From positions 1 through 64,000 of the forward strand of contig MDYQ01000019.1 in assembly GCA_003024175.1 (NCBI GenBank): 64,000 bases of DNA, in the 5' to 3' direction. Origin of the DNA: Planoprotostelium fungivorum. Its lineage: Eukaryota > Evosea > Variosea > Cavosteliida > Cavosteliaceae. A model generated the notes under the pieces. It was not told where the DNA came from. It saw nothing but the letters and a program-made list of their open reading frames with translations, and did not search any database. Positions 6,328 to 63,074 of this stretch are shown in pieces; position 1 is the stretch's first letter; every line of letters starts with the position of its first letter. The position numbers and the translations under genes are program-made.

Positions 6328-9300
6328 TCACTCGTCTTCTCCATTCACGAGCAATCTTTCAGATACTTCCTTCTTTTGAAATATCTTCGATATCTTCTTC
6401 CACATCTTTCTCGTTGCGAAGATGAACCCCACCACCAACGGCATCACAACCAAGACGATCTGTCCTCCCTTCAATTCTTCTTCCTCTTTACAATTCACCT
6501 CTGCGATGATGTAATACGACTTGTCTTCAAAGTTGCTGATGGCAGACATGCAAGCGAGAGAGAGGAGGCAGGCAGTCTCTAGTACATGTCCTGGTCTCGT
6601 TTTGAAAGGTTGAACGAGTGCGTGTGACCCAAATGAGAGCAGCGTTAAGAGGCGCAGGGCCGTTTGGTTCCTGTGGGTCGTAAACGAATGCGACTTCTCC
6701 ACGAAATCCACCATATCGTGTTCACGGTCAATACGTAGATTACAGCCACGGCCAGTCTCCTCAGCATGTATACAGTCTCCCAATATCTATATAGAGGTGA
6801 ACATTCGAACGGCAGCAGTCCACTCACTTGCAGCCGTCTCTGTAGCAGCCTTCTAAAACCATGAGTACGTCCATTGATGTTCGTGTCGTCTTCCGTTTCA
6901 ATCTTCGCCTGGATTTAAATGAGTCGAGAGGAGAGAGGGGAGAACTACCTTAGAAGAAGGAGAACGAAGGGGGAGGGTAAGAGGATGACCATGTAGATGG
7001 TGAGGAGGATCGGCCTCCATGCAGAGTGACAGGACATGCTGCCCGAATTGTACATGACGGATCCGTGATCACCCACCTGTGGATCACATCAGCGCGATGG
7101 GCGATGTGATCGGATGATGCGTGACGTGATCTCAACGTGATGCGAGATGTGATCGTAATGATGGTGATGTGTGTGTTTTCTCGCGGTGATGTGACATTCA
7201 CGATCGCGTATGACGATCACATCGCGATGACGGAGACGATGCGAAGATGAGTCTTCGTAATATCGTGAAGAGACTCACTTGGATACAAAAGGATAATTTG
7301 AGACAAATGGAGAGAACACCACCGTAAACCAATAGACATGCCGTTGTGATCCCCGTGCTGAATCTGCTGGCCCAGCTCCTGCTCCCCCCCGGTACAAATG
7401 TTCGTGACTCCTGCCTCAAGAATACGTCATTGAGGAACCACCCCATACCGAGAGCCATAACGGTAACTACCGGAGCGTACAGCACGATGAATTCTCTCTG
7501 CACGTAATCCAATTTTCCCAGGCAGAAACCGAGATTTCCAGTAGATTCACCGTTTTTGGGGCTGATCGTCAGAGCAAAGAGACCCATAATCCCATCGAAA
7601 TATCTCCGACTCACTGAACGTGTCACTCGATCGTTGTAGACGGTCATCACCTAGCAACGGAGCCGTCTGTAGGAAGAAGGAGAGAGTCTTCCACACGGAG
7701 CCGTCGCCGATGGGAAGGAACAAGAGAGCAGTGACGTAGAGGCAGGGTAAGAGGAAGACCACCAGACCGTACCAGTTGGAGCATTGCTCCATGGATTGAC
7801 ACCGGGATGACAGGAAGCCGATGGTGTAACCGTCTTCACAGTCTCCACAGAGGATCCCACGGTGGTGGGATTCGCAGGAATTGTCCCACGGATGCTCCAC
7901 GGATTTACAGTAGCCACTCGGACAATCGATGCAGTAGAGGTGTCCGTTGGGGTCCTCTTCACACCAGAAGCCCGCTTTCGCCTGGCTCGTTCAGTGAACG
8001 ATCGATGTACGTATTTACGTACCCTGGGAATCACTCCTCGCCTGCACACCGTGTTGGGTGGACAAATTTGACAGGTGTCGTTGAAGATGTTTCCACGGAT
8101 CAATTCAGATGTCCCCGATACGTAACGACCGTCTTCACAGGGTGAACAGCTCCAAGAATAGCCTCCATTCTGAACCTCCGACAATACGGTGAGGGGTGGA
8201 CAATGGATGTCGTTGTCGTGTGAGATCGAATTTCCTGCGAAAACTACGGTGTGATCGGTGTCCATGTCCAAAGGCGAGGCGTAGATTACGTTTCCGGACA
8301 TCTGCCACGTCTTCAATCGAGTTCGCCGATTTTCATCGAGTTTTCACCTCGAACCGTTCGAACTCCATGACCGAGAGGGTAGAGCCGTGTGATGCGATAT
8401 TTTCCAAGAAAGTGCAGTTACGGATGGAGAGTACAACGTTTGACGAGCCCCACATGCTGGCGGCACCACCGTCCAGAGTGGCAGAGTTGTTGATCATTCT
8501 CACGTTTCTCATCGAAATTTCACTGTTCCTCGCCACGATACCGATACCTCCTCCCGTATTCGCACGGCAATTCGTCACACTGTGGCTCGTTGTAGATCGA
8601 TTTTTAAATGTAAAATGTGAAACTCACTTGACGTCAGAGATGACTATCTTGGAACCAACGATATCAGATAGAGATATCGCAGCTCCCACCCCAGTGACAT
8701 AGCCGTAATCCATGATATCAGACGAAGATATCTCTATGATCGACTCCAAATAACGGTCGATCCACAGAGCAGGGCCCACCGAACCTTTCCAGGAATTTTC
8801 TCTGATGAGAATGCGATCCGGATCCCTCACAAACAATGGAAATGAATCATGAATAGAGGACAAGTGATAGCTGAAGAAGCGGTTTCGGAATATGTGAATG
8901 GATGCTCCATGCATACAAGACAGGTGGGTCACGTGTGTCATATCGTTGTCGTGTAAGATGTCTTGGGTGGGGTACATACAGCCGACGCGCTGTGTGGCGT
9001 TTCAGATAGAATGGAAGGAGATTTCACTGACTTGTACGGACATGGAATGTACGGAGCTGGAGTTGATGGTCAAGATTGCTTTGTCGAGTGATAGTGATGC
9101 GTTCCGTGATGTGAGGCGATCGATTTGAATGGTGTAGAGGGACCTGCTGGATATTGAAAGGTCCTCGAGAAGATTTTCCACCACGTGCAAATCAAAATGA
9201 CCGAAGTTTCTCTGCAGAGCCAGCACCACCCGCCCGATGGTGTTGTTTTGCATCAGCATGGATGTTCGTATCATACTAATGACACTGGTGACCAGTTCGC

Positions 9301-10351: not shown

Positions 10352-13300
10352 TCACGATTTTAAAATACAAGAAAGGCATTTTATTTCTTTCGAGCGGGTG
10401 CCATCGGACCGTAATCCAATTGGAACTGTTTTCACGTTACATTCTATCACTCTCCTCTCCCTCACCGTTTTGGTTGGACTACAACCTTCCTCTCTCAGGC
10501 AGTCACCAATGATCTTATCTGGTGATATCTTTCTCCCATCTGTACAGAGTCAGTGATGATCACCATTGCACGTGATGACATCAAGCCAATGTGTTGTGAT
10601 GTGATGATCTCTTCATGTGATGATGGTAAGATGATGACAGACTCACGCAGCCAAAAGTGACAATCCTCCGTGTTCTGTACATTTCCCTTGATCTTATCTC
10701 TCAACACAAACATCTTGCTGCTCGAATTCACACGAGTTTCCAGTGAAAAGTCAGAATGCGTCTTGATCAATACGGACACGATCTCGTCGGGAGGTGTTCC
10801 CACCGGCTGTACAGATGTCAGATGATGTCAGATGAGATGTCATAGCTCACAGATCTTTCTGCAGAAGTTCTGATGGCAAAAGGCTCGCTGATGGCGATCT
10901 CTCCTTCTCGATTTCTGAGAATATTCTCAGGATGTGAAAATCGGGTGAAAATTACCTTCCCACCATCCTTCCGATGCTACCGAATTTCCTGGAAGATTTG
11001 TTGCGGAATCCCTCTGGTGGAGAGAGAGCATCGAGAGGTTTCATGTCTAATGATAGCTGTCATCCTCATCAGCTTCTCCATCACATCCAGTTCATCATCA
11101 TCATGATTGTGATGATGATGATCCCGATGACTGACGATCGTGACGACGATCTCGATGATGATCGTGGCAATGATGATCTCGATCATGCGCCTCACCGTTG
11201 CTTTTCCATTATCGTACACGGATATGGAGTTGTCCGGGTCCAACAATTGCGACCCGAGGAACAATCCGTATCCATGTCTGCTCTCCGGCATCTTCTTTGA
11301 CAGTTTCTCCAGCAGCAATCTGACCGTATCTGTCGATTCAGCTGCAGTCTTCACGGTGAGGTCCCTGCAGTTGACCGTGATGGACATCAGACTCGAAGAC
11401 ACACTCGCAGATCTAAGATTCCCAGAGCTCGTACTGAGCGAAGCGTGCGCGCTGCGAATCGCATGAATTTTCCCGCCAAAATTCGAGCGGTCTCACTTGC
11501 TGGGAAGACCAATGATGGAAGCACGGAAGGTGTGCTTGCCGCTGTCATCCAGGGAATAACTTGTCTGAACGATGTTCTGTAACAGGTCGTGTCTTGCCTT
11601 TAATAATTTCCTGGAAAAGATGGGTGCCTCCATGGCGGCACGTTCTCCGTTCAAAACTGTGGGGGTCAGTGTGAAGGATGGCGGTTGTAGACTGACGTTT
11701 CTTTAGCATGAAATCTCTGAAATTTTCGTCGTGATTGAAGAAGGCGGTGGTGGGTATGGGAGGGCCGAACGGGGGGACACCTCTCTTCGATGTGACGGCT
11801 ACCCTAGTTTTCGTTGAGTTTTCCAGCACCCGACGTACGGTACTCACTTGTAGCGTAACCGTTTCGTGGTGCCGTCGTAGACGGGTTGTACGACCACGAA
11901 GACATCTGTCATAGGTAAAGGATGATATGGTCTCGTTGTAGATGGATGAAAGGATACGATTGAATTGGGATTTGATTACAGTGGGGGAGAAGGCAGTGTC
12001 TCCGTGCTTGAATACGATGATGACGACCTGTCATGATATCAGACGCGACATCATCACATATGTAATGGTCTCACATCATTTCCCACGTGTCTCTTCCTCT
12101 CCACTGTCACGTGCGTCAGGCGGAATCTCGTGGAGATGCCGTAGAAATTCCGTGGAAATCTCACCTTGCTGAGGGTCGTTGGGGGTGTAAGGGATGAGTG
12201 TGGGAACATGGAACATGATTTCTACTCCATTGTACTTTGTGTACACAGAATGCGTACCCGTGGAATCCCCTGGGAAAGTCAGTCTCAAAGTCTCATAGTC
12301 TCAGAGTCTCACGTTTGACGTCCAGTCCACCGTTGTAGTTCTCCCAACCTTGCAATTTGACTTTCTCTCCCATCAACTTTAAGAATTCTTCGTATTGGGG
12401 TGAGCCGTGGCCTGTGATTCTCAATCGATTGTGACGATCTACAACGACCACTCACGATTTCCAAACATGTCATCGTCCGTGACTTGATTTTCGTCACAGA
12501 AGATGATTCCCACCTTCATCTTCGAGATGACCTACCCTCTTCACTTCGAAATTCAAACTTCCCGCCCACCTGCGTCTGCTCAAACTGTGCCAGATCCTTC
12601 ATGATCTGTTCGTCAGCGACGGACGTTAACTTTGCGTTGGATAATACATTTGGAAATGATGTCCTCAATAGCTTGAGGTAATCTTTGCTGTTCTTCGGTT
12701 TTCTCGACCCCGAATCAACGAACGCCCTCTCGTCTCGCTGATGACGTGTCATGACGTCATCCGAAATTTCGTCGAACGTTCACCTCTTCCGTTCGGATCA
12801 GGGCGGGAATGATATTATCCGTCGCACGCATGATGGAGATCACGATGGGTCCACTCTTATTCACTCCACTGAAATTGAGGTGGACTGTGATGATGTCATC
12901 ACACGTCATCACGAATCGATGTAGAAGAGATCTCACTCTTATCTGTAAAGTTGTCACGGTACCAGAATTCATATTTCTCCGGTTGTTCCAATTCATACTG
13001 CGCGACGCTCTTGGAAGAACCTGGGTTGGGTCAATCTACAACGAGACACCATCCCTCCCACCCTCTGTCCTCCAGTTGTCGTTCAGTTCGACCAGTGAAG
13101 ATCTTCTGGTCAGGGTCATGAGTGATCTCCTCGATGTGTTGAGATCACTGATGTGAGGATACATCCCCATGATCTTATCCATCTGCGTCTCATCAGAACC
13201 CATCATCATCATCATCATCATCATCATCAGATATTCAAAAATATTTCTTATATCAATCGACACTCGAAATCCTCCATTGTAGATGGAGAAATAAATGTGA

Positions 13301-14746
13301 ATCCAAATCGACGAAATCGAACAGAATGACGGCTCACCGTGTTGTCTTCCGGGGAACCCTCCTTCGATTCGATCTCCTCACGTTTTAGAATGTGCTTGTC
13401 TAAAAGAGCGAGTGGAGAAGGTCTGTGGTGCATGAAGAGCTCCAGAGAGTGCACCCTCTCGTGGTCAACCGTGAACGTTCGGCTGTTCCTGACTCGAAAG
13501 TCGATTGTAGACGACGCGGAGTCCATGAGTGTCGGTGTCATGAGCAGATTGGCTATGCGAGTGGATTGAGGTCTCTCGTTGTCATCATCATCGTCGAGAC
13601 CAAAGTCGGTCGAGTTGTCCAGTAGATCCGTACCCCTGGAGAGGTCAGCGTCTCGAATATTTGTGACGCTGCACTCACGAGACCCTCGGCTCTTGGATTT
13701 TCGTGGGTTCCTCTTGCTTGGGGGGTTCCGTGGATTTCGATGAAATTTCGGTGGGTTGAATGGGTGAGGGCTCATGATGGATGTCTTTGGCTGGTTGTAG
13801 TTCTCTCGTCAATTCTAATTTTAATTTCAGCACGTGATGTCTGATGTGACATGGTGATGTGGATGACATGATCACCTGGTAGAAGTTGAACGGTGTTTGA
13901 AGAGACGGCAACATCTGGAAGTTCGATCGATGACGTCAATGGAATGGGAGTCGATGATCGTGACGTGTCCATCATGGGCGTGATGGGTGCGCTGTCGATC
14001 TTCTGCTCGGTGTCAAACTACAACGATGTAGATGGACGTCACCCCGTCATTCACGAAGGTGAGAGCTTTGAACAGCTGAGAGCTCTTGTCTACATTCTCA
14101 TCGTGCGCACCTGCGAGCTGTGAGAAGAAAGTTGACAGAATCTCTCATGAGAGATCGTGAAACACACCATCTAATTGTCTCCAGAAGTTTCTGGCCTCTT
14201 TGACTTTACCGCGCTGCTCGATGCTACGAATGGAAGCTCTCGTAGCTCGCGTCGTAGACATCGAATGAGTCAACAATCGATTTTCATCGTCATCCTCTTC
14301 TTGGATGTGAATGGATGGTAATGGTTGGCTGTTCGACAGAGTCAAAGTTGGCTCTTTTGGAGGAGTAGAGCTAATTCGGTTTCCTTCGATCTGTTGGATG
14401 ACAATTCCTCTTCCTTGAAAGGATTTCAAGACAGACCCGGCAGACTTCTTGTTCTCCTGCTGTGGAGCCACGCGGACAGACTTGTCCCCGTTGACCAATA
14501 AGAATCGCCATTCTGTCGGGAGGCCCTCTAACTCGTCTTCCATTGTCTTTCGCAATGTGGCGAGCTACAAATGAATCAGCGATGCAAATGAGAGTTCGTG
14601 TGTACTCACAGTGGTCTCTGTAGAGTCCGTTTCGACGAAACCGAGTGGCTCATCGAGATTGGTGTTGAGATAGATGTTGATCTGAAACACGACATTAGAT
14701 CGACCTGATCGCTCAATGAATCCCTCACGAGAGATGTATCGCTCAT
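10352..14746 (-). CDS. Rap GTPase-activating protein with ubiquitin-like regions at both ends
   Basis: Multi-exon GAP for Rap-type GTPases. The RapGAP domain (about 13.1-11.5 kb) shows [66 protein letters not shown], the catalytic-Asn helix [14 protein letters not shown] and [17 protein letters not shown]. The N-terminus (MSDTSL then [20 protein letters not shown]) resembles a ubiquitin-fold extension. After the GAP domain a phase-2 junction joins directly to [13 protein letters not shown] and [18 protein letters not shown], which resembles talin F0/F1 ubiquitin-like folds. A final segment holds [20 protein letters not shown] and [16 protein letters not shown]. Rap and talin control adhesion and cell shape in amoebae, so the pairing makes sense, but the domain fusion is my reading of splice phases. 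Confidence 0.82.
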
Positions 14747-18465: not shown

Positions 18466-19957
18466 ATGCAGAAGCAGACCAAGTACAATTTATCAGGTGC
18501 GTCAGCAATGGGACACAGTGATGTAACTTGAGACAGAGACCAACATCGCCAACTTGGGCAGTGACCTCGAGAAGAAGATCAAGGAAGCCGCAGCCAACAA
18601 AGAGGTAACATCCCGACAGAAACACGTGTCTCATACAAACAGATCGCATGGAAGAACTGTGGTAAGGCTGCAGGACTGCAGATCTGGAGAATCGAAAAGT
18701 TCAAGGTCAAGCAGTGTCCCACCTCTAGCTACGGTGCGGTTCATGTTGAGAATCACCTCCTCATTTTCAACCAGGTACCTTCTACGATGGTGACTCATAC
18801 ATCATCCTCTATGCGTACAAAAATCCCAAGACGGGTGCTCTCTCGTACGACATCCACTTTTGGCTGGGACATGAGACCACCCAGGATGAAGCAGGAACCG
18901 CTGCCTACAAGACCGTAGAGCTGGACGATTGGCTCCACGGAAACATCCACGCTCATGCCGTCCAACATCGAGAGATCGAGGTGATGCACCGACATGTTCT
19001 CTCCCTCCATTCTAAACCATCACAGGGTGGCGAATCTGCACAGTTCCTCTCTTATTTCACCACGCCCATCAAGATCTTGCATGGCGGCATCGAATCAGGT
19101 TTTAGACATGTCGAGCCCGAGAAGTACGAACCCAGACTCCTTCAACTGTCTGGAAAGAAGAAAATCAGAGTGCAGCAGGTACCTCTCAAGAGAGAGTCCC
19201 TCCACTCCGGTGACGTCTTCATCTTGGACACCGGCAAGCACATCTATCAGATGAACTCCTCGAAGTCGAGCGGTCTCCTCCACCACAAGGGAATGCAGGT
19301 GTGCATCGGCTCATCTGATGATGATGTCAGATGGACGATGTGCTGATGGGAGACAGGTGGCTACAGCCATCGAGAGCGACAGAAAGGGTCTCGCCAAGAT
19401 CACCGTCTTAGACTCTGAAAACGACGTCGAGCCGGTGCGTCATCTCCTCTTTTTTCATTCACATCGTCTCATCTTCTGACGACAAACAGGGATTCTGGTC
19501 CTTCTTTGGAGGATTTGGACCCATTCAATCTGCAGAAGATGCTGGTCAACACGAAGGAGAGAAGGCACACGGAGACAAGAGGCTCATGAAGGTCTCTGAT
19601 TCCACCGGTTCCCTCGAATTCACCGAGGTAAGATTTCGAATGTCTACAACGCTGTAGATCGTGACAATATTCCAGGTCGCCGTCGGCAGTGAGATCAGCA
19701 AGAGCCTTCTGAACTCGGACGACGTCTTCATCTTAGACAACGGAGAGGAGGTGAGTCATCGTGTCCCATCATCATCTGATGGACGTCATCAGGTCTTCGC
19801 GTGGATCGGAAAGAACAGCTCAAAGGACGAGAAGAGGACAGCTCTCGACTTTGCCCACAAGTACGTCATGGATCATAATCTGCCCGAGCACACGCCCATC
19901 TCTCGTTTAGTGGAGGGAGGAGAGAACATGACATTCAAACAGTCACTCAAGGCTTGA
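18466..19957 (+). CDS. sevA: Severin-type actin-severing protein (three gelsolin repeats)
   Basis: Calcium-regulated actin filament severing and capping protein. Starts MQKQTKYNLS, then TNIANLGSDLEKKIKEAA, IAWKNCGKAAGLQIWRIEKF, GTFYDGDSYIILYAYKN and SYDIHFWLGHETTQDEAGTA (repeat 1), then GFRHVEPEKYEPRLLQLSGK and SLHSGDVFILDTGKHIYQMN (repeat 2), then ISKSLLNSDDVFILDN and VFAWIGKNSSKDEKRTALDF (repeat 3), ending TFKQSLKA. Exons are separated by about nine short introns. About 360 residues, the size of Dictyostelium severin, with no villin headpiece. Very clear. One intron contains a near-palindromic copy of the window-wide CTACAACG motif at 19644. Confidence 0.95.
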
Positions 19958-30616: not shown

Positions 30617-30812
30617 TCTCTGTTGCTTGCTCGTATTCGAGCAGTTGAGAGCGTTGTAGATATGCGAATAATACCGGAAAAGAATTCACGTCATCATTCG
30701 TTGGTTTGCCGTTCAGGGAAATTGAAGTGCGAAGGAAGAAGAACATCATCTGAACAGACAAGTTCACACGAGAATACGAGAAGACAAAAAGATATATACA
30801 TACGAAGAGAGT
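30617..30812. promoter_or_regulatory. Divergent promoter region, TMEM230 and E2v-UFD1 genes
   Basis: 196 bp between two outward-facing start codons. A TATATACATAC stretch near 30793-30803 lies just upstream of the plus-strand ATG and could be a core promoter or part of the 5' leader. No other element recognised. Confidence 0.35.
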
Positions 30813-44761: not shown

Positions 44762-45554
44762 ATGACGTTTATAGACTGCGCAACGGTTGTAGGTGCCTCG
44801 TTAGCTGGTGCTCTTCTAGCAGAGCGTGAGTGTGCCAATCATTCACGATCCTGAAAACTCTCAGTCATCTCGTGGGTGTTGATCTATAGAACCGACAGCT
44901 ACAAGAGACTGACTGCTGAGCTCGAGCGCCTTCAATCGAAAGGTAATTTCCATACTCAAATGATCCACTGACATTTGTTACTGCACGGCTCACAACTCAA
45001 ACAGTGGATAAATACAAAGAAGTTGCAACAGCTGATACGAAATCAAAGAAGAAGGACAGATTTGAAGATCAGATCAAGCAGACCAATCAAGATCTGACTT
45101 CGTTCCGTCTTCGATCCACCATCGCAATCGGTGACGATTCTCGTCTCCAAATTCTTCTCAACCTCACTCAGGTATTGCCATGTTTTCTCTCTTCGCCGTA
45201 CTGAACTCCACGTGAGCACCGTCATCATCATCTACTTCATCTATCAACCTTCCAAATGCCTTTCTTGTGACATGTCTGACGACCTTCAGTTTCGATGGTG
45301 TCGTGGTCGCCCGTCTCCCCTTCGAGCCTTTCTCCTGGATTCGTACTGTGTCCCACAGAGGCATCAGCGGCACAGATTACTACCAATGTGAGATGATGCA
45401 TCCGTGATCCAAACTCCATCGGCTCATCATCGCAGCCTCCATGGTCTTCGTCTACATCTTATCCTCCATCGCCATTCGAGCCAATCTACAACGGTTGCTG
45501 GGCACCACACCCCCACCCAACCCCACTCCCTCCATCTGGGGTGCTCCCCAATAG
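44762..45554 (+). CDS. TMCO1: TMCO1, ER calcium-load-activated channel/translocon component
   Basis: MTFIDCATVVGASLAGALLA (TM1), IYRTDSYKRLTAELERLQSK, a Lys-rich coiled coil (KEVATADTKSKKKDRFEDQI), then a TM pair ending in FDGVVVARLPFEPFSWIR, VSHRGISGTDYYQC, ASMVFVYILSSIAIRANLQR and LLGTTPPPNPTPSIWGAPQ. RTDxYKRL, VVVARLPFxP, HRG and the C-terminal helix match TMCO1 along its length (about 185 residues). Five short exons. In animals it lies in the ER membrane and works with the multipass translocon. High confidence. Confidence 0.93.
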
Positions 45555-45564
45555 ACATGACGTA

Positions 45565-45578
45565 CTACAACGTTGTAG
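45565..45578. repeat. Perfect palindrome CTACAACGTTGTAG between two convergent stops
   Basis: A full copy of the window-wide motif sits in the 25 bp between the TMCO1 stop (45552-45554) and the stop of the convergent MORN gene (45580-45582). As RNA either strand would form a short hairpin just after a stop codon. This could mark 3' ends, or be one of many dispersed copies by chance. Confidence 0.85.
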
Positions 45579-45579: not shown

Positions 45580-46292
45580 TCACGGCATTTTATTCTCGAA
45601 ATTCGATTGTCCTGCTGGCTTGACTCCGTGTAAGATCTCGTTGTAGAATCGTCTGTCGTAGCCTGTACAATAATTTCCCTGCTTTGCGTCGTGCAACAGA
45701 CCATCTCTGAAGGTGTATTGACCCTGACACTACATCAGTTGCGAGGAGCATCATGATTGGATCACCTCGATCACTATGCCTTTGCTCCACGTGGCGGCGT
45801 ATTGACCGAAATCTTTTATATACAATATGCCTTCGCCGTCAAATCTGAAGTTCGATCAGAGCTCGATGGAGATGGTGACGTGCGACACTCACTCTCCATC
45901 TTTGAAATCACCGACGTAATAGTTTCCATTGGCGAATGTGAATGTACCCTATTTCATCTTAATTCACCCCACAGACATTGATTCATTCACCTTCCCATGC
46001 ATTCTGGTGACACCATCAGAAGAGTCAAGATACATGAACACTCACCTCCCGTTGAATCGCTCTCCGTCATATGTACTACCAGACAGGTCCATCGTGTGTC
46101 GGTGTCTGACTCCCGATTTAGCATCATCGTCATCTGAAGAAGATGGAGACACCGAATGCTTGATTCTCTCCTTACCTATTACGATGTACCTGAGTGCTGG
46201 ACTGGAGGTCCTCTCAGAGAAAGGGGAAGCGCGAGGAGGTTGGGCTTTCCTTGAAGTTCTACAACGCGCCGGATAGGCTCGGGGCTACTCAT
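45580..46292 (-). CDS. MORN-repeat protein
   Basis: MSSPEPIRRVVELQGKPNLL starts at 46292. A 56-nt intron leads to SDDDDAKSGVRHRHTMDLSG and STYDGERFNG (MORN). The next exons give GTFTFANGNYYVGDFKDGE, FDGEGILYIKDFGQYAATWS and CQGQYTFRDGLLHD, then GYDRRFYNEILHGVKPAGQS ending NKMP. About three to four MORN motifs. These repeats occur in membrane-linked scaffold proteins and in flagellar radial-spoke proteins. One junction (near 45953-46045) is off by one base in the simplest model, so either the border is unusual or there is a small frame error. Confidence 0.65.
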
Positions 46293-48151: not shown

Positions 48152-48524
48152 TGTTGGCGAATAGATTATATAGGATGTCGAAATCTCACACAACTCGTGC
48201 TCAACACGTTCACTGCGACACAACATCACACAGACATGACTTCATCTTTCGGGACCGTTCCGCTTCAGCTATCTCTGTCCAGATGATGGCTTCAAGATAC
48301 CATAAGAGGTGAATTCACGTCAGATCCTGCACCATGAGCTTCGCAGCAGAAAGCCAGCGGGAGACTCCAGGAGATTTCATTGACCATGATTTAGATAGGC
48401 TACAACGGGACATGTATTGCGTTTTTGGAAGGCAGGGCACAATTTCCAACGCAGATGTGTTCGCCCGCAACGAGCTTTCTACAGAGATAAAAACATCATA
48501 ACGAACTACCCAAAGAATACAAAC

Positions 48525-49360: not shown

Positions 49361-49365
49361 TTGAG

Positions 49366-50423
49366 ATGACGATGATGATGATCGAACTGACTGGAAGAAG
49401 GGTCTGGGAGTGGATTTGTGCTATCTGCGTGGTCTTATTCACTATTCTATTGGTATTGCGACTGCAGGACATACTACAATGCGCCTGGTCCATCGTATTT
49501 ATTCCCCTATTTTTCATCATGGCTCAACTCCTCCTCGCTCCCACCCTCTACGACGCCTTCAGAACTTATTACGATTACAATTTTGACACCGAATTAGAGC
49601 CAGGTGAATATCCCATCTCATCGTCTAATCATCTCGTCATCACATCATCACATCATCTGATCGTCACCTCCAGATGAAGAACAGAATCGCGTCTGCGGCC
49701 CCATCTTCTTCTATCTCGCCTTCCCCGCCCCCCTTCAAGTCGATCCAAAGACATCCCGCTGCTTCATCTACCCTTCCGTCACCCTCATCACTCTCTGGAT
49801 CATCCTCCTCGTCCTCAAATTAGACGGCACGACTTCTCTACCCCACTGGGCCGTCTTCCTTCCTCTCATCATCACCACCTTCTTGTGGTCTCAACTTCCA
49901 CTCTGGGTCGGAGGCTTCTCGAGTATCTTGTCCGACAGTAGAAGGATCGACCGCATATTGGGATGCTCCGTCATACTATCACTCGCCGTATTCCTCATTC
50001 TGCTCGTTCTCAAGCTGGACGGAAGGATGGAGGAGACGTGGTACGTTGTCATGAGCCCTCTGTGGGTTGGAAAGGGGATCTTTATGATGACGCCCATCTT
50101 CTTTACCGTGGTCAAATTGTGGGTCTACCTGTGTGGATGCGGCTTGACCTGCTGTCGATCTACAACGAGGTTCTTCAGTCACTGGGGGACACTCTGCGTG
50201 ACCTTCTTGGGAATATCGACCATGGTTCTGGTGCCGCTCTTGGTCTTTGAGATTCTGATGGCTCAGCTGCTGCAAGGAATAGCCCATCCGTTTGCGGTGG
50301 TCTTCATCCCCATTTTTGTCATAGAAGGTGAGAGGAGAGAATGATGGGAGTGGCTGATGATGAACAGGATTCATACTGTGTGGATGCTGTGTGGTCAATT
50401 GCGCGTTCTTATGCAGTGACTGA
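49366..50423 (+). CDS. TMEM185 (transmembrane fragile-X-F) family protein
   Basis: MTMMMIELTGRRVWEWICAI starts at 49366. Hydrophobic spans: ICVVLFTILLVLRLQDILQC, AWSIVFIPLFFIMAQLLLAP, VTLITLWIILLVLKLDGTTS, HWAVFLPLIITTFLWSQLPL, SVILSLAVFLILLVLKLDGR, TWYVVMSPLWVGKGIFMMTP, LCVTFLGISTMVLVPLLVFE and HPFAVVFIPIFVIEG. The repeated VLKLDG...W..VF.PLW pattern is the TMEM185 family's internal repeat. It ends in a Cys-rich tail (FILCGCCVVNCAFLCSD). Three exons. The function of the family is not established. Confidence 0.82.
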
Positions 50424-50702
50424 GAGTCGGCATTCGATTTTACGATCGGTGTGAATCTACCATCGCACATCAAGTGCCGAGTGGCCTGAGGCCAGAAGAC
50501 CCGTTTTCTTTCGTGATCATGACGATGATCATCTCGATCACTCGAAATAAACGAAAGACGAAATCGTGTCATAATGTCATTCGATTTACGTGTGGTGTTG
50601 TCCGCTGATCCACACCGTGCGATAATGTACAGAAATTCGGCATTCATCTACAACGGCCCATTCCGTGATTTCCGATGAGAGGTTGGTCCACACAGACACA
50701 CG

Positions 50703-53211
50703 ATGCCCCCAAAGAAGGGAAGACCGGAACCAAATAAGATCGTCTCAGAAGAGCGATCTAGCTCCCCAGATGATGCTACTCCGGCAAAATGTCCGCACAT
50801 CTCTCGTAACTTCAGGTACAGAGACGTCTATAGACGGATCTTGAACCCTTCGAGATGGTGTTGTGGAGGTGATGATCTGATATCGCCTCTCAATGCAAAA
50901 GACATCCGATGAACGACTTGCAGTGTGTGGAACGACCGAGAATGTGTGGGCGTGTCTATCTTGTGCCTTCATGGGCTGTGGACGTTATCTCAAGAACCAC
51001 GCGAGCCAACACTACAATGACAAGAAGCACGCCCTCGTATTAGACATCAACAGCAAACTCTGCCACTGGTGTTGAATCAATTCATCTCGAGATTTAGCTG
51101 ATCTTCGATCAGCTACGAATGTGAAGCTTACGTTCCAAATGACAACACGAAAGGACAGATACAGCAACTAAGAAGACTGTTGGAACGAGCACAGACGAGA
51201 CAAGATGATGATGAAGTGAGTTCGATGTCTATCTCTTTTGATGAAAAGAAATTGATGTCCACAGGATTTGAACCTCAGCAAAGACGAGATCATTGTGAGT
51301 CACTCACCATCCTCTCTTCTCATCCACACCCAGGAAGATGAACCAGAAATTCCTCAACAGATCGACTTCCAGCCAACTCAGAAAGAGTGATCTTTATTTT
51401 ATCTCTCTCATCACAACTCATTGATGTCATCTCATCTGAATTCATCTTTAGATTTCAAACGATGGATATCGTAGAGTCAGTGAAGAAGAAGAGAGGAATG
51501 AGACTGGCCAAGTCAGCCTTCTTGAAATGGAAGAACAACGTAGTTCTCAATCGCTCGTCCGAACTCGACGTGGAAGTGAGATCCGTGCACCTCCTCCCGC
51601 GAGATTCAAATTTCAAATCAGGCGCCAAAATCGGAAGAACTACCGTCCAAGATTGACAAGAAGAGAAAAGTGGAAGGAGAAGAGAAGGTGAGATCTCATC
51701 GATGTCTCATGATCAACCGTCGCAGGTCATCGAAGAGAAGAAGAAGGATGCAACCAGTGGTAGGACGGGCCTGCGTAACCTTGGTAACACTTGCTTCATG
51801 AACAGTATACTGCAGTGTCTCGGTCACAACCGGAGATTTCGCGAATATTTCATGCATCAGCTCCTGCCGCGATCGCAGGGAACAGAAGAGGCGTCGGTCA
51901 CCATCAACTGCCACGTGTGTACACGTCATCGTGACGAATCGTGACGAATCGTGACGTCATCAGACTTTCACGCGGCAGCCCACGGCAGAGATGCTGGCGC
52001 TCATCATCCAGCAGAGTAAGAGGAGGAAACAAGAGAAATTGAAATTGGAAGAATTGTGAGTCGACGTGTCGTCTACAACGACTGAAGATATCGTGAGATC
52101 TCTGGCCATGCAACTGCACACCCTCTTGAGATGTCTCTGGTCCGGAGAATTATCCGTAGTTTCTCCGAACGGGCTATTGGATGCAATTTGGTCCTTCGTC
52201 CCAAAATTCAAAAACTACCAACAGCAGGACGCACAGGAATTTCTGACGGAATTTCTCGACAGGTGCGTCCATCTCGGTACGTAACGTGAAATTTCGCAGG
52301 TTACACGTGGAATTGATCAGCGCGGGAGAAGATAAACCGGATGGGAAGTCCATCTACAACACGAGTCATCTAAAGAGTGTGATCAACGACATCTTCCAAG
52401 GCACGAAGATGAACCAGATCAAATGTTCCAACTGTCAATCTACAACTCGAGTCAAGGAGCCATTTTTAGATCTCATGCTGGACATCCCCAAAGTCTCCTT
52501 ACCCCAAGGTGAAGGGTCTCGTTGTAGACGAACGTAACGGTGCGTACAGGTAGGAGGGCCAAGAGGGATCCGGGTGCCGTCTGCAAGCTGGAGGAATGTA
52601 TAGAGGCCACCCTTAAGCCTGAGATCGTCACAGACAGGTGACAGACGACAAGTGTCAAACTGACATCCAATAGACATTGCGACCACTGCAAGACGAAATG
52701 TGACGCGGAAAAGTCGACGAAATTCGAAGTCTTACCCCAGGTGGGTAGTTTTCGTCGAGATCTCTGTTGATCACGTGACAGGTCATCTGCATCGTATTGA
52801 AACGATTCTGCTGGATGGGAAATGTGAGGAGCAAGATCAACACCAGCGTCACTTTTCCTCTGACCTCACTCAATCTATCCGCTTTCTGTCTGACTCCATC
52901 TACAACGACTTACCACCTGCAATCGATCGTCACACATCACGGCACACAGTGAGACATAGACAACACATCATGATGATGGTTGACATGATGACAGATTAAG
53001 AGAAGGACACTACACCAGCTACTGTTACAACGATGAAGGAGACACGTGGGAACATTACAACGACAGTAAAGTCCACATTGTCATGAGAGAAGAGGTAGAG
53101 GGTACCGAGCCTTACCTTCTCTTCTATGAGATCGATGCGGTGCAGGAGGGGAAGGAGAACGATTTAAACACGACACAACCCTTTTTTGAAGACGAGATTG
53201 TAGATGAATAG
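50703..53211 (+). CDS. Ubiquitin-specific protease, USP3/USP44/49-like, with Zn-UBP domain
   Basis: [20 protein letters not shown] starts the protein. The Zn-UBP finger [40 protein letters not shown] binds free ubiquitin C-termini in the family. After a Lys-rich linker comes the catalytic domain: Cys box [38 protein letters not shown] (QQDAQEFL), zinc-ribbon [20 protein letters not shown] and [17 protein letters not shown], and the His box [20 protein letters not shown] followed by YLLFYE. Cys and His are intact, so it is probably active. About twelve short introns. Candidate substrates such as histone H2A/H2B come from relatives only. Confidence 0.92.
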
Positions 53212-53446: not shown

Positions 53447-54718
53447 ATGGGGCGGCTTAACTTCCTCGTCTTGATTTCCCTTATTTATTTACGAGTTGGC
53501 GCATACGGTGTCACCGATGAAACGTCCATTCCAGGTGATGTCCATCCATCTCCTTCTCGACTCACATTCTTTAGACATCCCTTGCTTTCCAATGGGTTCA
53601 GCATCGTTTCGCGACGGTCTGCCTACCGCCAATCGAACAGAATGGTTCTGCGATTCAGATCAATTATTCGGTTTCCTAGGGTGAGCTCCACCTCGAAACT
53701 TCATCCAACGTGTCTCGTAGGTTCAGCTATCCCATGGAGAGCTTCGATTGTGAATCCGACATATATAGCTACCAACACCTCTATACCGATCTCAGTCGCA
53801 TGAAATCAGAATTCGGCGCCACATTCGTTAGAACGTATCTACCGGGATGTAGAGAGACCTTCGTGTGGGTCAACCTCGTCAAAGCCGCTCGCGATCTCGA
53901 CATGTGAGCATGTTCTTCATACATCCGTCGACTTCATTGCCTCTGTTCGTGTAGAGTACAGAGTCTAGAATCTGAGTGAAATTGGTAGGGCCATCATCCC
54001 CATGTTATATTGGGACTGGCAACGTAACGATACGTACATGTACAAGTCCGAAGATGCTTTGATGGGCGTCTTTGAAGACCCAGAAGTCGGCGAAATTTCA
54101 CCTTACGTCATCCACTCTGTCGCCTTTGGTGATGAGCTGGGAGAGCAGGGAGACTATTGGCTACCTCTCATGAAAGAGATGAAAGCAAAGTTGGCGCGAT
54201 ACGATGTCCCAATCACCGTCACGGACGATTGGGACCGGGACATCTACCGAAAAGGCGGGAAACTGAACGAATTTGGGACGCTCGTCAACCAACTGTCCGA
54301 TCTGACCAACGCCCACGGTGAATATCTCATCTACAACGTTGTAGACAACCATTTACCCCCGGCAGTCATGCCGTATTACCATGCAGATCGCTGCCCCGAC
54401 GCCTATCACTACTGGGACTATTTTCAAGAACAGATCGAGTTCATGATCGACAACGATCTGAAGCGTCCCATCTTGATCTCTCAGACTCTTTGGTCATCAT
54501 CTCACGAGGGCATCCACGATCGCGGTTTGCACGATGAGGCGAGGGACTTGGCCAACTTTGAGACGTACTGGAACACCATACTGGACCGATGTCTGTACTT
54601 CAAAGAGAAGAAGATCGGATGGTTCGTGCACGCTTACGATGATGATGGAGAGCCCGGAATGGGCATGATCGATCATCAAGGGCAAGTTAAGATGAGATTT
54701 CACCCTAAACGCTGCTGA
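53447..54718 (+). CDS. Secreted GH17-like protein (beta-1,3-glucanase fold), nucleophile apparently replaced
   Basis: A signal peptide (MGRLNFLVLISLIYLRVGAY) precedes ASFRDGLPTANRTEWFCDSD, FSYPMESFDCESDIYSYQHL, FGATFVRTYLPGCRETFVW and MAIIPMLYWDWQRND, a (beta/alpha)8 pattern like fungal GH17 glucan hydrolases. VIHSVAFGDELGEQGDYW matches the acid-Glu strand (GNE-like). At the second catalytic strand, where the family has ETGWPS, the sequence reads ILISQTLWSSSHEG, with Gln for the expected Glu. It may therefore be a non-hydrolytic glucan binder, or belong to a different sub-branch. About five exons. The third contains a full motif palindrome at 54331-54344. Confidence 0.65.
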
Positions 54719-55217: not shown

Positions 55218-58200
55218 ATGGAACCGACGATATCACGGTGGTGCCGTTTGGCTGTATCTCACGTGGTGATTGTCTTGATGCCAAGTTGTAATCATCCACG
55301 ATTGACGAAGGCAGCATCATTCTGGGTCAATCAGTCGTCCATGCCGGCAGTTGCGATAGATCGCCGAGTCCGTTTGGAGATAACATCAACTGTACTCTCA
55401 CCTCCGGTAAAACAGTTCAATTTATCGCCTACGACAACAACCAGACCGCCTGGATTGGTGCAAACACTTGTAACAAATCACCATGTCATGTTCCGATACC
55501 TGCTGGAACTGGGCCAAATCACAACCTCACCTTCTACGCCACAAAGAACGAGATCATGGAAACCATTGTCTATAACTATCAAGCACCTGCAGTCTCCTCC
55601 TGGACTCCAGTTGGAAGTGCTGGTTCCCTCTTTTCGATCAATGGACAATACTTGAACTTCCCCGGCGTCAGCATCACCATCGGACAGAACCAATGTCTTA
55701 ATGTGAACTTTTCAAACGGGTCGATGACTTGCATCATTCCAACGGGTGTTGGAAGACTTCTCCCTGTCTCTCTCACAGCCAACGGTCAGTCCATCGCGAG
55801 CAGTCTCCAAAAAGGCCTCGGTTGGGAGGTGACAATCACACATTCTCATCTTCATTTTCATCGTGGAATATAACAGCCAACAGATCTACTCTTCCAGGCC
55901 CAGCCAGACCGAAGACAATTTCAACTTGGTCAACAGCGACCCTCGAGTCACTCAGCTCTTCACAGGATACACCTATACTCTCTCTGCCACATCATCCACA
56001 AACGGAAGCGATTGGTATAATGCACCCGCCAACATCACCTCCTACGCGATCGTCTTCACTGGCGTTCTCTATTCACCTTCGACCACGACCTTCTCTTACA
56101 GTATCGGCTCAGTCCCTCAGTCCTTGACGTGCAAAGCATCATCTGGCATCAGCAATGGGGTATTCAACTTTCAACTCTCGGCCAATCAATACTACCCTCT
56201 CCGAATTGTCTTCTACATGAACACTTCTTCATCATGGTCCATCAATCTCACCGCATTTACCAATTACGTTTATCTGGTGAGACCTTATTTTCATTTCATC
56301 TGCTCATTCATTTACAGAGCAATATCAGTAGCGCTGCGGTATTCTCTTATCTTGCTCCCACATTCTCTAGCATCTTTCCCGCCTCCAACACCCAGCCCAC
56401 CTCCCAGCTCACCTTGACCATGAACGGCACAAATATTGGGGACGCCAGCTATTCCCCCACCCTCTACGTCAACGGTCAATCCACCGCATTCCAGATCAAT
56501 AACGGCTCCATCACCTTCACTCCACCCTCTCAGGGAAGGTTCTCGTTACGTTACGTCACCGGAGGTCAGTCGTTCCAGACCGATTGGACTTTTCTACCCC
56601 CCTACATCAACTCATCTACAACCTGCCCGTCCACAGGCTGTCAGTGTACACTCACTGGTACCAGTCTGGGAAACGTACCCGGAGCGATCGGAGTCATCTA
56701 CAACGGACAGAGATTGAATTTATCCGTCAGCATTCCTACGGATTTCAGTGCCGTCACTTTTGCCCTGCCGGCTGGGTATCGCAACGCGTCTCTACAACTC
56801 ATCGTGAGTGATTTGGTGGGAAATATATTCAACTACGCCTACTCTCCCGCCAATTTCACCGCCATCACCGGTCTATCTACAACGCTACCGGGCGGAAACC
56901 TCGTCACCATCTCTGGAGGAAATTTCGGTCCAAACACCACGTACCCCATATCCCTCACCTGGGGTGGTGTGCCCATCTACAACGCGACACTTCAGTCAGA
57001 CTACAACGGCATACAATTGTACCAGCCGACAGTCAGTCGAGTAGGTCCGGTACTAGTGTCTCTTTCCATCGGTGGAGACGTATTGACCCAGAATTACGTC
57101 GCCCTACCGTCTATCTACAACGTGGCTGGGCCCTCTCAGGGAACACCTTCCTTCTCACTGAACGGTACGTGGGGTGACACGTCATCGTACAACGCTCTCC
57201 TGTACATTGGTAACATGACCCTGCCCATCAGCCCTTCGTCTACAACGACCTTCACTTTCGACCTACCCCCTTACCCTGCCGGTATATATCCCATGGTATT
57301 TCAACTGGGCAACTACAACTCGACGCCGGCCAATTTCACGTACATTGCCGCACCCCTCGTTACCTCAGTGTCTTTAGTACCCACCATCGGTGGTTCATCG
57401 ATTATTCTGGGAAATTTTCTCAACTACTCATACCCCAGCGTGACCATTGGGGGAACGTATGTGAACGTCAACTCTGTCAGCATGACATCTATCACCATCA
57501 TGGTTCCTCCCGGAACAGGCAGTACTCTTCTCATCGTCGACGTCAATGGTCAATCTACAACGATCACTTTCAGCTACCAACCCCCCACCATCACGGATAT
57601 TTTCGGAAATTTCAACACGACGGGTGGTAGCATCAACATCACCGGTACGAACTTTGGAACAGACGTCAGTGTCATCCGGGTCACCCTTGGAGGCATCGAT
57701 TGCCCCGTCATCAGCTTACCGGGAGCTCACACGGTAATGAACGTGAAAATTCCACCGGGCTCGGGTAGTCGCACTCTCTTCGTACAAGTCGACAGTCAGA
57801 TGTCTCCAGCTTACGTATTTACGTACTCTCCCCCCTCCCTGACGAGCTTGACGAGAAATGTCCCCACATCGGGAGGAACGGTCCAGGTTCTGGGGGCTAA
57901 TTTTGGACGCAACTTGAGCTTGGTCAACATCAGCCTGGGAGGCATTCCACAGAACGTCTCCTCTGTCACAGATGACTTAGTCTCCTTCTACGCTTCACCC
58001 GGCACGGGATTCTCTCTTCTCTTCATCACGGTGGATGGCGTGACCGTAACCAATACGTTCACTTACGCTCCCCCTCTCATCTTATCCGCCAAGATCGACG
58101 ACGGCATGGAAAATCTCACTCTCCACTGTCTCAATCTGGGTTTCAACTCCTCCGACACTCTCGTGTACATCAACGGCTCGATGTCGAATGCCTCGACGAA

Positions 58201-61200
58201 CGTGTCTTCATTCACCACCCTGGTCATCCCTTGGAACGGAGCATTGTTTGCCACCATCTACGTCAACGTGTCAGGGCAGTCATCTCCCCCATTCAATTAC
58301 ACGCTGGGAGCGCCCAGCCTGTTGGCCCTTCCCACGGATCTGTCCACTGCCGGTGGATCCATCAACGTTACCGGTGTCAATTTGGGAACGGCTCCAACTC
58401 TCGATGTCTCGTGGGCCGATCAGCTGTTAACGTTCGACGTGTACAATACGACGGTACTGAGTGGAACTTACCCTCCCGGTGTGGGTGCCAATCTCATCTT
58501 CTCCGTTACCATCGCTGGTATGTCGACGTCGACTACCTTCGGTTACGCCCCGCCAACCATCAGCCATTACGCGAGCTCGGGCGATACCAGTGGGAGCATC
58601 GTGTACGTAAATGGGACGAATTTGGGATACGATGCCACCACGATGACGGCTACCCTGGGCGGAATCCTCTGTGACGGTCTTGTTGTCGACACGAATTATT
58701 CCTCGGTACACTTCAACGCGCCACCCGGTGTGGGATCCACCGATCTACGATTGACGGTGGGAAGTGGAAATCCTTCAGCCACCTTCACGTACAACTACAG
58801 CCCTCCATCTCTCTACAACGTGACGGGAAATATCTCCACCTGTAATCCCATCGGATTCATCCAGGGGGTCGATTTGGGACCGGACACTTCACGGACCCAA
58901 ATTTCCGTAAACGGAAAGCCCGCCACCCTCGTTACCATGGTCACCGGTCACACCACTCTCAGCTTCACGGCTCCATCAGGTACTCCCAACGGAACTCTTG
59001 TCTCTGTCACTGTGGGGGGACAGTCCAGCAACTTCGTCCCATTCTACTACGCACCACCATCCATCAGCAGCGTCACCGGTCCCAACAGCACCCAAGGCGG
59101 TAAGATGATCATACTAGGGTACAATCTCGCCGCACCCGGCTACACTCCCACGGCCACTGTAGATACAGAAACGATCGCGGCCGCGATCAATGATTTACAA
59201 TGTGGTTCACTTCGAATCTCGATCGGAGCGGGTGTGGGAACCAATCACACCATCACCCTGCACATCAACAACGACGTATCGATCAACGTCTCCTTCTCCT
59301 ATCCACCTCCCCAGTTCACCGTGACTCTTCAGAACGATCCAAAGAGTTACGGCTATCTCGTCATCTCGGCCACCAACGTGGGAGCCACGAACGATCTCAC
59401 CACCGTATACTTGGATGGTGCACCCGTGGACTCTTCTCTCATCATCTCGATCGCACCCGGACAGATACAAATCGCAGCACCGAACGTACCCCGTGTCATC
59501 ACCATACAAGTGGGAGGGCAGCGCTCTTCGCCGTACACTTACGTTCCTCCACCGGCCACGGTAGCGACTTACACGTCTACCATCACCACACAAGGAGGCT
59601 ATATCCAGCTGACGGGTAAGTACGTGTACGCACCGTACGATCGCATCAATGTCATCCTGGGAGGCGTAACCGTAAGTGACTTCTATGCGGCCAACGACGG
59701 AACTTCCCTGGGAATCCAGATACCGCCTGGTACCGGCTCGAAACTTCTGGTGGTATCCATCTACAACGCTACAGTCTACTCCAATTTTATCCGCTACAAC
59801 CCACCCACTATCACTGGCCTCGTGCTCAACAATCTCAACACTGACGGTGGAAGGATCTACATTAACGGCAATGACTTTGGAATTCTCGCGGGAGACGTGA
59901 CGATATCAGTTGGGGGCACGCCGTGTGGGAACGTCACGATGGAAACGGTACATCACGTGATGAGTGTGGATGTACCCCCCGGTGTGGGAGTCGATCTTGC
60001 CCTCACTCTCAACGTCAGCGGCCAGGCCATTGTCTTTCCTTTCTCTTACCCTGCACCAACGATCACGTCTGTGGGAACCGTGGGAACTTCCGGTGGAGAA
60101 TTGTTGGTATTTGGAGACAATCTGGGAAGGAACAACCTTGTCGTGGAAACGGATGGAGCATATTTGGTTCGGAACAATCGAACTGTGGCCTATCTCAATG
60201 TTTTGGCGGGAACAGGTGTACAACACTCGTGAGAAATCTCATCACAATGAAACGCTGACGAAAATAGATTGAACATCACGGTCGGAGGACAGGCCATCAG
60301 CTTCACATTCAGTTATGCCCGACCGACCATCTACAACGTCGCGATCTACTCACAGAATCACCTCTACGTCGTTGTAGATGGGTTCAATCTGGGTTCTCTT
60401 GATCAAAATGTCACCAAACCGATTCTCACTTTCGGCACGATTCCTGCCGAATTCATCGGAGTCACTACGGGTAGTTTACTGTATCAACCCCCTCTGAGCC
60501 TCAGCAATGGCAACTACACCCTCTACATCGTTGTAGATGGACAGAGCAGCTCGGGATATCCCTTCCAGTGGAAGACGAACAAGCCCATCCTCCGCAGCCT
60601 GCCCACCAACTACACAGTTATCGACGTCGACAGAGGTATCGTGACCTGCCAGATCGGAATCTCCGTGGAAGATCACGTCGGAACCTCCGATCAGTCTCTG
60701 TCCCTGACCAACAACGTCACCTCCCTCCCCTCCGTCTACGTCGCCGATCAGATCACCATCTACAACGTGCCAACTGTGGTCGACGGCGGCAAGAACATCA
60801 CCCTCACCTTCAATGTCACGGTGGATATCAATCGCATCTCACCCTTGGGTTTCATTTCGTTGAGAACGACCAATGCGGTGAATCAATCTTCAGACTTGGT
60901 GACCATCCGTCTACAATTACCCAATGACGTCATCTTGGAGGTGATTTATTATTCTATCTTATTCTCTTGGAAGGGGTGGAGCTGAATGGCTGACGTCGTC
61001 CAGTTGAATAAGAAGAATAACTCTGCGCTGAACGGTACTGCCATCTACAATGCGATCAATCAGTTGCAATCACTGTATCATAATTCATCTTATTTCACCA
61101 TCTCCACTCCACAATTCACCATGACGATCCGTGGTATCAAGGTCTGTATCATCCATTTTCCCGCCAAAAAGTAACGTCATTCTGAATCTCCTCCAGGGCC

Positions 61201-63074
61201 AGAACACCACCAGCGTCGCGGTCAACGGTAGCGCTGCAGCTGTCACTATTCCTCAGTCTTCTCTGTCTCAACTCAATATCACCGATGCGTACGTTACGCT
61301 CCTGTCCATATCTAAAAATCCATTCGGTTCCCTGGATCCCACTCCTGTGTAAGTTTCACCTATTCTTCCGTATTTTTCCGTAACCCCCACCAGCCACGGT
61401 GGTATCACGGCCGTACAATTATCCGATCCTTCCGGTGCGGAAATTCCCGTGGAAGGTCTATCTACACCCATCCAGATCGTCATCCCCCTCTTCTCTATCC
61501 CCGACAACCAATCAGGTACCCCCTCATTTTCCCGCCAAAACTGAAACGTATCAGTCCTCGTTTGTTCTTATTGGAACGTGAACAACTCCTCTTGGAGCGG
61601 TGACGGTTGTACGGTTGGAAATGTCAGCGCCACGTCACTGACGTGTCTGTGTAATCATTTGACCAATTTCACCGTGACAGCCTCACCGAGAAAGTCGGAT
61701 AATTCCGGTTCACCCGTTTCCGGTGGATCAACCGACGATCAGACTACAACGAGCCAAGGAGATAAGACGGTTATCATCGCCGTGGCGGCCGCCGTGGGAT
61801 CCTTCTTGTTCATATCACGTGAGTGGGACCGAATTTTCAACGGAAAACTGACGAAATTTCAGTCGTCGTGATCATCATCATCTTGTACGTTCGATCGAGG
61901 AGAAACGCAAATTTCATCGACATCGAATTGACAGAGAATGTGACCACAAACGTGAGCATCTACAACTCGCCGCGTTCATTTCTCATTTTCCTCAGAATTT
62001 CGACGAGACGAACATCGTGTTGGACGAGACGTTGAGCATTGGAAAGAAGACGACGGTGTATCGCACCATTTGGGGTGTCACTGTGACGGCCGTCAAGATG
62101 GAAGACGCTGATGATGCCGATTTGTCTCGTGAGATGGCCCGTCTGAAGGTATGGTATCATGCATGTCGCGATCGTGATCGTGATGGTGATCGTGTAATCG
62201 TGATGTGACCGTGTGATGATGATGACGTTGATCAGGAACTCCATCACATTCGCATCGTTCAGTATCTCGGTGCATTCAAGAGAGAAAATCGATTGGGTCT
62301 ATTACTCGAATTCATGCCCTGCGGAAACCTCCACACGGTGCGTACTCCCGAGTCAAAATTCCCCTGACTTTTCCACAGTGGACGAAAACGAAAGTCATGT
62401 ACCGCGGTGATATCCTCTCCATGTGAGATCATCAGGAAATTTCATCTTAATTTCTGACACGAGAAAAGTGGAAGACAAGTCGCCGACGGCCTCGTTTACC
62501 TCCACGCCTTAGAGTGGGTGCACGGTGCAATCTGCGCAGAGAACATCCTCTTAGCCTTGGGAGTGGGTCACGTGACCTCTCGAGCTTCCCTGACCTTCCC
62601 ACAGAGCGGGGGGAACATGGTCGCAAAGATTTGCGACTTCGGCAGCATGGTCAGGCCGGGAGGAAAAGCTGAAGCCTTGTGTGATGCACCGGAAGTGAAA
62701 GACTCGAAGAAGGTGGAGAAGGGAACGGATGTCTTCTGCTTGGCCGTCGTCATCATGTGGGTACACGTCATGCGACGTAAGAGTGACGTCAGCAGGGATA
62801 TGACACATCCCATCAAGTGCTCGACGTCTCTGAAGGTGAGAGGAGATGGAGGAGGAGGATGACTGACTCGTTGTAGACGATAGAAGATGCAGAGAAGAGG
62901 ACGTTGCCCGATGATATCGATGAGCTGATGGACAGATGGTGATGCAGATGAAAATATGAGTGTTGACTACTTTACAGTTGGAGACCGAAGCCTAGAGATC
63001 GACCCACGGCAGTGGAGGTGTACCGCGCTCTCGAAGCGTACAAGCATGAACCCATGTCCATGAGTGGTTTCTGA
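55218..63074 (+). CDS. Giant receptor: IPT/TIG array, PA14-like domain, GPS motif, one TM, pseudokinase
   Basis: The start is uncertain: MEPTISRWCRLAVSHVVIVL at 55218 looks like a signal peptide, but its junction does not close cleanly. The ectodomain has about 15-17 IPT/TIG units, most in one exon (56.32-60.23 kb), each with a T-x-GG-x-I-x-I-x-G-x-N-x-G core and a Y-x-P-P linker, plus a PA14-like insert (NITSYAIVFTGVLYS, YYPLRIVFYMNTSSSWSINL). N-glycosylation sites abound. Then come CSYWNVNNSSWSGDGC and LTCLCNHLTNFTVTA (GPS motif, HL-T cleavage), TM VIIAVAAAVGSFLFIS plus VVVIIIILYV, and a kinase fold: VTAVKMED, EFMPCGNLHT, HGAICAENILL (HRD changed to HGA), ICDFGSM. Loss of the catalytic Asp marks a pseudokinase. 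It ends EPMSMSGF. Confidence 0.85.
60331..60377 (+). repeat. Inverted pair of CTACAACG motifs in the IPT exon
   Basis: CTACAACG at 60331-60338 and CGTTGTAG at 60370-60377 face each other across 31 bp of coding sequence. Translation at the first is IYNV and at the second VVDG, so the DNA word is kept in two different peptide contexts. Confidence 0.8.

Follow-up and report, generated by a model that had tools for sequence, protein, structure and literature searches.

The highly iterated exact words known to us, namely HIP1, the DNA uptake sequences (DUS) and the uptake signal sequences (USS), are all prokaryotic, and we are not aware of any uptake system of the DUS/USS kind in eukaryotes. Here, an exact 8-letter word, CTACAACG (CGTTGTAG on the other strand), is described in a 64-kb stretch of the amoeba Planoprotostelium fungivorum (contig MDYQ01000019.1, positions 1 to 64,000; hereafter the window), to which all counts refer and in which the word is strongly over-represented. 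As in USS, its core is asymmetric and its flanks are weaker. The PATCs (periodic A/T clusters) of C. elegans are intronic DNA signals like this word, but are not an exact word, and the pairing-centre and dispersed chromosome-identity motifs are short and bound by zinc-finger proteins, but form chromosome-specific clusters. The cyanobacterial HIP1 (GCGATCGC) is likewise a strongly over-represented octamer, as an extract of PMC4390886 describes it. However, the HIP1 octamer is itself palindromic and linked to a methyltransferase, whereas CTACAACG is non-palindromic. With DUS, as portrayed in part of PMC2397512, the present word shares its short and exact form, a frequency of about one per kb, permissive positions and inverted pairs, and like DUS and USS it is dense and found on both strands. 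DUS and USS are, however, bacterial and have a defined uptake function, whereas this word occupies an intron-bearing genome, in which introns are richer in it per kb than intergenic DNA.

With a probability of about one half, we read the window as one densely occupied by the binding sites of a single putative sequence-specific nuclear DNA-binding protein, which are kept where coding constraint is low. The enrichment and exactness of the word, its use in both orientations, its preference for introns (given the gene models), a codon-level signal and abutting half sites were all observed in the window; from these we infer the protein, its dimerisation, the selection, a looser constraint on the exons of one TIG-repeat gene (the TIG gene) and the role of the sites.

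An over-represented word and its half site

The 47 exact copies of CTACAACG/CGTTGTAG (31 on the plus strand and 16 on the minus strand) lie at 44 distinct places with a mean spacing of 1,455 bp; the 9-letter core TCTACAACG is present in 41 exact copies and ATCTACAACG in 28. Only 1.25 copies are expected from an order-2 Markov model and 6.07 from an order-4 model, the strictest used, and in both models CTACAACG has the highest z-score of all 8-mers with at least 10 copies. Four 8-mers exceed it in raw count, all of them simple-repeat-like or overlapping. Dinucleotide shuffles (n = 60) contained 0.95 copies on average and four at most, and all 1120 anagrams of CTACAACG gave a mean of 1.96 copies, with 12 for the runner-up. 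Composition thus does not explain the abundance of the word. A previous sequence-only reading of the window had counted about 45 exact half sites, which is close to the exact number; all 28 coordinates that it gave carry the word, and its statement that most copies are flanked by T agrees with 41 of the 47. The gap that it placed at 24.0–32.3 kb is really one of 24.0–30.7 kb because a site at 30652 had been overlooked. The uneven spread that it reported holds when the TIG gene is included (variance test, p = 0.015); without this gene it is not significant, and the same test showed no clustering of the sites elsewhere (p = 0.55).

The repeated unit is an asymmetric half site, approximately GTCNATCTACAACG in an iterated profile, in which the core TCTACAACG is nearly invariant. 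One-mismatch copies of TCTACAACG number 44, against 14.3 in six simulated windows (six of the 44 are CTACAACG without the leading T), and two-mismatch copies 195 against 180.5 in the same simulations. Over the 44 places there are weak preferences in the left flank (G at -6, T at -5, C at -4, C at -3 and A/G at -2) and in the right flank (A at +8, G/T at +9, C/T at +11 and A at +12). Six one-mismatch copies have the final G substituted and a CG one base downstream; GTCNA precedes four of the six, and these variants may be a working, alternative form of the element. CTACAACNCGCC has five copies, of which the one at 46259 is the exact core, and TCTACAACNCGAG has two. The extended left flank GTCNAT, and the preference for introns described below, had not been noted previously.

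Only three of the 44 places carry the full 14-bp palindrome CTACAACGTTGTAG (32355, 45565 and 54331). The three full palindromes reported before thus exist in the 14-bp form, but the 18-bp form under which they had been titled, ATCTACAACGTTGTAGAT, was found once, at 32353. As the other 41 places lack the full palindrome and the repeated unit is the half site, 'iterated palindrome' is the wrong name for the element, and its asymmetry leaves the proposed membership of the HIP1 class, whose octamers are palindromic, unsupported. Nevertheless, TCTACAAC is followed at zero spacing by GTTGTAGA (at most one mismatch) at seven of 52 starts, against 0.06 expected, with palindromes entered once per strand; when the spacing was varied from 1 to 59, inverted pairs appeared at 33 alone (n = 2). 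Such an excess of abutting inverted half sites over chance suggests a binder that dimerises.

The extended half site and its occasional head-to-head joining would also suit relics of a small mobile element, or the terminal repeats of a domesticated transposase, with half sites as single ends and palindromes as joined ends. This origin is already weakened by the flanks 15–74 bp out, which are 25.3% identical against 24.9% for random sequence, by self-BLAST, in which none of nine hits covers a site, and by the several codon phases that exact copies take in predicted exons, and we hold it to be very unlikely. Local duplication, dispersed elements and introners were rejected in the same manner: no similarity extends past the core, and flank identity at the random level argues against a duplication or element. 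Local duplication, which had been named beforehand as a finding that would overturn the earlier proposal, is accordingly excluded as a general cause.

Position of the copies in introns and exons

Sites were classed with a small self-trained gene finder, which converged on 31 genes and 136 introns (median, 43 bp), mostly with GTGAG-type donors (from the donor counts of 131 introns); a first, conservative set of models had only 398 intron bases, too few for an intron test. The density of hits is 2.1 per kb in introns (n = 14) and in the exons of the TIG gene (n = 14), but 0.47 per kb in intergenic DNA (n = 12) and 0.28 per kb in other exons (n = 7). Of the 44 places, 13 are intronic, 11 intergenic and 20 exonic, the TIG gene accounting for 14 of the exonic ones. 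From 0 to 55.5 kb, introns make up about 11% of the DNA and hold 13 of the 29 places, against a mean of 3.1 in circular shifts (p about 5e-5); in the introns of the eight Pfam-supported genes alone, seven places stand against 0.87 predicted from the intergenic rate (p = 4e-5). The window therefore shows a preference for introns, in both orientations (six sense and eight antisense hits, at varied positions), that depends on the gene models. An intron-like context was also seen at 8588, at 62869 and around the exonic palindrome 54331, where the fractions of random positions scoring as high were 0.002, 0.028 and 0.025, respectively. The remaining intergenic hits have an unremarkable splice-score context, by a score that separates introns from random sequence only partly and has limited power (median, 6.6 at random intergenic positions and 9.0 in predicted introns).

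A plain promoter element was rejected from the densities of 0.47 per kb in intergenic DNA and 2.1 per kb in introns, since there is no intergenic concentration. Ordinary transcription-factor sites for the genes of this region, locally dense by chance of the locus and not genome-wide, are a broader form of regulatory explanation, for which it can be said that TTCCCGCC, also a word of regulator-like appearance, is enriched too (14 copies against 0.84 expected) and somewhat intron-rich (four of the 14). The hits, however, do not gather upstream of start codons, 28 of the 47 fall in introns and TIG exons together, and the Pfam families of the region's genes look functionally unrelated, so that we regard such sites as quite unlikely to account for the word. 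We take TTCCCGCC to resemble an E2F-type site.

The word also appears to be kept at the DNA level in coding sequence, as had been claimed before. In the TIG gene there are 14 coding copies against a mean of 2.9 in synonymous-codon shuffles, none of 2000 of which reached 14, and in the other genes seven against a mean of 2.9 (p = 0.006; 500 shuffles). The tripeptide STT is encoded as TCTACAACG in three of its six occurrences in the TIG gene (p = 1e-5), and [IVLF]YN[AGVDE] by the word in seven of eight (p = 0.001). The bias toward the sense strand matches what the codons allow, as TIG-gene shuffles give means of 2.8 sense and 0.06 antisense copies. The three coding phases reported earlier were all observed, phase 0 at two sites, one of them belonging to a weak gene model; and of about 15 copies previously assigned to the gene (then called the IPT gene), 14 are in predicted coding exons, while 62869 lies just past them.

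The pattern [IVLF]YN[AGVDE] is itself over-represented in the TIG protein (eight against 0.64 from composition), which means that the word shapes the protein or that the fold of the repeat plays a part. This excess, together with three introns that terminate in CGTTGTAG, is what could be said for the word as a by-product of splicing and protein, that is, an intronic splice signal plus a codon pattern (IYN, STT) in the TIG repeats. But synonymous-codon shuffles, which preserve the protein, lose most copies of the word, and the by-product already fails there as a full explanation; in introns, the mixed orientation and position argue against a splice signal. We find this explanation hardly credible.

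The same distribution bears on the idea that the word spreads itself through the genome in the manner of DUS/USS or HIP1: it would be gained with a bias (in uptake or repair, or by methylation-coupled repair) and would mark the DNA of the species as its own, with no role for each site. The exact copies on both strands and in three coding phases would fit it, and so would the palindrome at 45565, the only one of the three that lies between convergent gene models (of which one is weak), where an inverted pair might act as a transcription terminator, as with DUS/USS. The mean spacing is near the approximately 1,130–1,150 nt of neisserial DUS, which, in the portion of PMC2397512 concerned, also favour permissive regions and are often inverted repeats. 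Intergenic DNA, however, should be equally permissive, yet it has four to six times fewer copies per kb than introns, and no eukaryotic word of such a kind was found among the literature matches listed (open-access papers); we thus think a self-spreading word unlikely. The 8-mer itself occurs in 855 papers; among those listed, several deal with DNAzymes, and in others it is apparently part of a primer.

Rejected sources, neighbouring genes and side observations

A viral or prokaryotic source of the element was rejected. The 16-bp palindrome had scattered hits: 13 in the viral database IMG/VR, whose stretches (4–14 kb each) contain at most three core words and are not enriched in the word, and 79 hits in 257 billion bases of prokaryotic sequence, against about 60 expected; one of the 79 prokaryote stretches (L028) carries two palindromes. 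An RNA or DNA hairpin at the word was likewise rejected, as the flanks showed no covariation at the 30 centres tested (largest |z|, 1.45); hairpin arms of 5–6 bp about another centre are present only at 32589 and 39372. The class I RNAs of dictyostelids, considered by their description in part of PMC7919456, were set aside, and an Rfam search of the window gave no match at gathering scores.

Several of the site-bearing gene models are supported by Pfam. The RapGAP match covers profile positions 1–184 of 185 (residues 18–199) and spans the first to the last of eight model exons, and the ubiquitin hydrolase match extends over the whole domain (1–254 of 254). Gelsolin repeats, UFD1 and MORN were matched in model proteins, and MIOX, PPR, GST, ZZ and TIG domains in open reading frames; a TgrO1-like Ig match in the window stayed below the Pfam cut-off, and both this match and the TIG-repeat gene would be compatible with an amoeban source. 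The proteins of three site-bearing models (genes 4, 20 and 28) had no Pfam match, and that of gene 28 none in a PDB search. The TIG gene model is very large; inspection by eye suggests a kinase-like 3' part and a stretch of transmembrane character. The positions of all sites are listed in Table 1.

Table 1. Core words, palindromes and variant sites of the window, with the TIG-repeat gene model
Feature	Position	Strand	Context
Core word	7632..7639	-	predicted 37-bp intron 7614-7650, sense
Core word	8588..8595	-	intergenic by models; strong 48-bp intron-like context
Core word	11934..11941	-	RapGAP gene intron 5, sense
Core word	12331..12338	-	RapGAP gene exon
Core word	12439..12446	+	RapGAP gene intron 1, antisense
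Core word	13036..13043	+	intergenic
Core word	14018..14025	+	predicted intron 3' end, antisense; near-palindrome, second half site one mismatch
Core word	19644..19651	+	gelsolin-like gene intron, sense; near-palindrome
Core word	24022..24029	+	intergenic
Core word	30652..30659	-	intergenic; absent from the sequence-only reading
Full palindrome	32355..32368	.	predicted 38-bp intron 32347-32384; 18-bp ATCTACAACGTTGTAGAT at 32353
Core word	32589..32596	-	predicted intron 32579-32623, antisense
Core word	34577..34584	+	intergenic
Core word	37978..37985	+	makes up predicted intron 3' end, antisense
Core word	39372..39379	+	intergenic
Core word	41361..41368	+	exon, codon phase 0 (LQR)
Core word	41722..41729	-	predicted intron, antisense
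Core word	42227..42234	-	makes up predicted intron 3' end, antisense
Core word	45486..45493	+	exon, codon phase 0; gene model weak (83 residues)
14-bp palindrome	45565..45578	.	flanked by predicted convergent genes, of which the left one is weak
Core word	45639..45646	-	MORN-repeat gene exon
Core word	46259..46266	+	intergenic
Core word	48400..48407	+	intergenic
Core word	50160..50167	+	predicted intron, sense
Core word	50648..50655	+	intergenic
Core word	52073..52080	+	ubiquitin hydrolase gene intron, sense
Core word	52520..52527	-	ubiquitin hydrolase gene intron, antisense
Core word	52900..52907	+	ubiquitin hydrolase gene exon, codon phase 1
Full palindrome	54331..54344	.	coding in model; inside 48-bp intron-like stretch 54318-54365
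TIG-repeat gene model	55556..62839	+	14 exonic core words
TIG exonic core words, first seven	56698, 56877, 56977, 57001, 57115, 57240, 57555		
TIG exonic core words, last seven	58813, 59761, 60331, 60370 (-), 60529 (-), 60760, 61744		
Core word	62869..62876	-	intron-like context 62836-62886, 3' end of modelled TIG gene
Variant sites (9-mer centres)	33404, 33707, 42509, 52357, 52443, 61963		one mismatch, final G replaced

Other features were recorded in the introns and repeats of the window. An identical 12-base end, ACGAAATTTCAG, perhaps a branch point plus acceptor, is found in three of the 136 introns (32579–32623, 33083–33122 and 61819–61862), and two introns of the TIG gene (61142–61196 and 61516–61554) carry TTTTCCCGCCAAAA. 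The predicted introns have a lower RNA folding energy than their dinucleotide shuffles (mean, -7.5 against -6.7; standard deviation (SD), 0.2), and their longest inverted-repeat arm is slightly longer (4.64 against 4.51; SD, 0.08). Among 6- and 7-mers, words of the ATCATC type show the strongest enrichment in introns, and ATC/GAT simple repeats lie at 13203–13230 and 34168–34230. Eleven of the 13 copies of GTCCCACAG/CTGTGGGAC are within 42687–43196 and fit a RIVPQPV-like tandem protein repeat in the reading frame at 42.4–43.5 kb.

A putative nuclear reader of the word

In the reading that we favour, a monomer of a putative nuclear protein would read the 13–14-bp half site GTCNATCTACAACG, and a symmetric dimer would sometimes bind where two half sites abut at zero spacing. 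As both orientations are used, the sites would function in double-stranded form. Selection or biased gain would keep them where coding constraint permits, above all in short introns, and the long, presumably loosely constrained TIG-repeat exons would likewise retain them. The likeliest role would be that of a chromatin or architectural mark of gene bodies, rather than promoter activation or splicing.

Several points weigh against this reading. The evidence comes from one window, and the division of its sites into intronic, exonic and intergenic rests on self-trained models built from the sequence. Other words (TCATCATC, ATCATGAT and TTCCCGCC) are also commoner in introns, so part of the preference may be general, which weakens the claim for this word in particular. 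Of the seven exonic copies outside the TIG gene, two belong to a single, possibly intronic palindrome, and a third falls in a weak model. Four weak families of direct repeats of at least 24 bp (25–41 bp) were found within 55500–63000, two of them containing the word; five of the 14 TIG-gene sites fall in these two families of weakly similar 25–26-bp repeats, and repetition may account for a few copies. Finally, columns -18 and -15, well beyond the motif, deviate as much in a chi-square test as the weaker motif flanks, and the weak flank preferences are thus not to be over-read.

We suggest further, as a doubtful and tentative extension, that the word may be spread genome-wide in this eukaryotic nucleus, mainly in introns and permissive exons, as a mark of self-identity or of gene-body licensing with a dedicated dimeric reader, and may thus correspond, in a eukaryote, to DUS or HIP1. 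If this is true, selection or drive on DNA words would be powerful enough to work through introns as well as through coding sequence, and a single word, used as a single probe, would be a handle for finding the reader protein. It would also supply a concrete reason for keeping some short introns.

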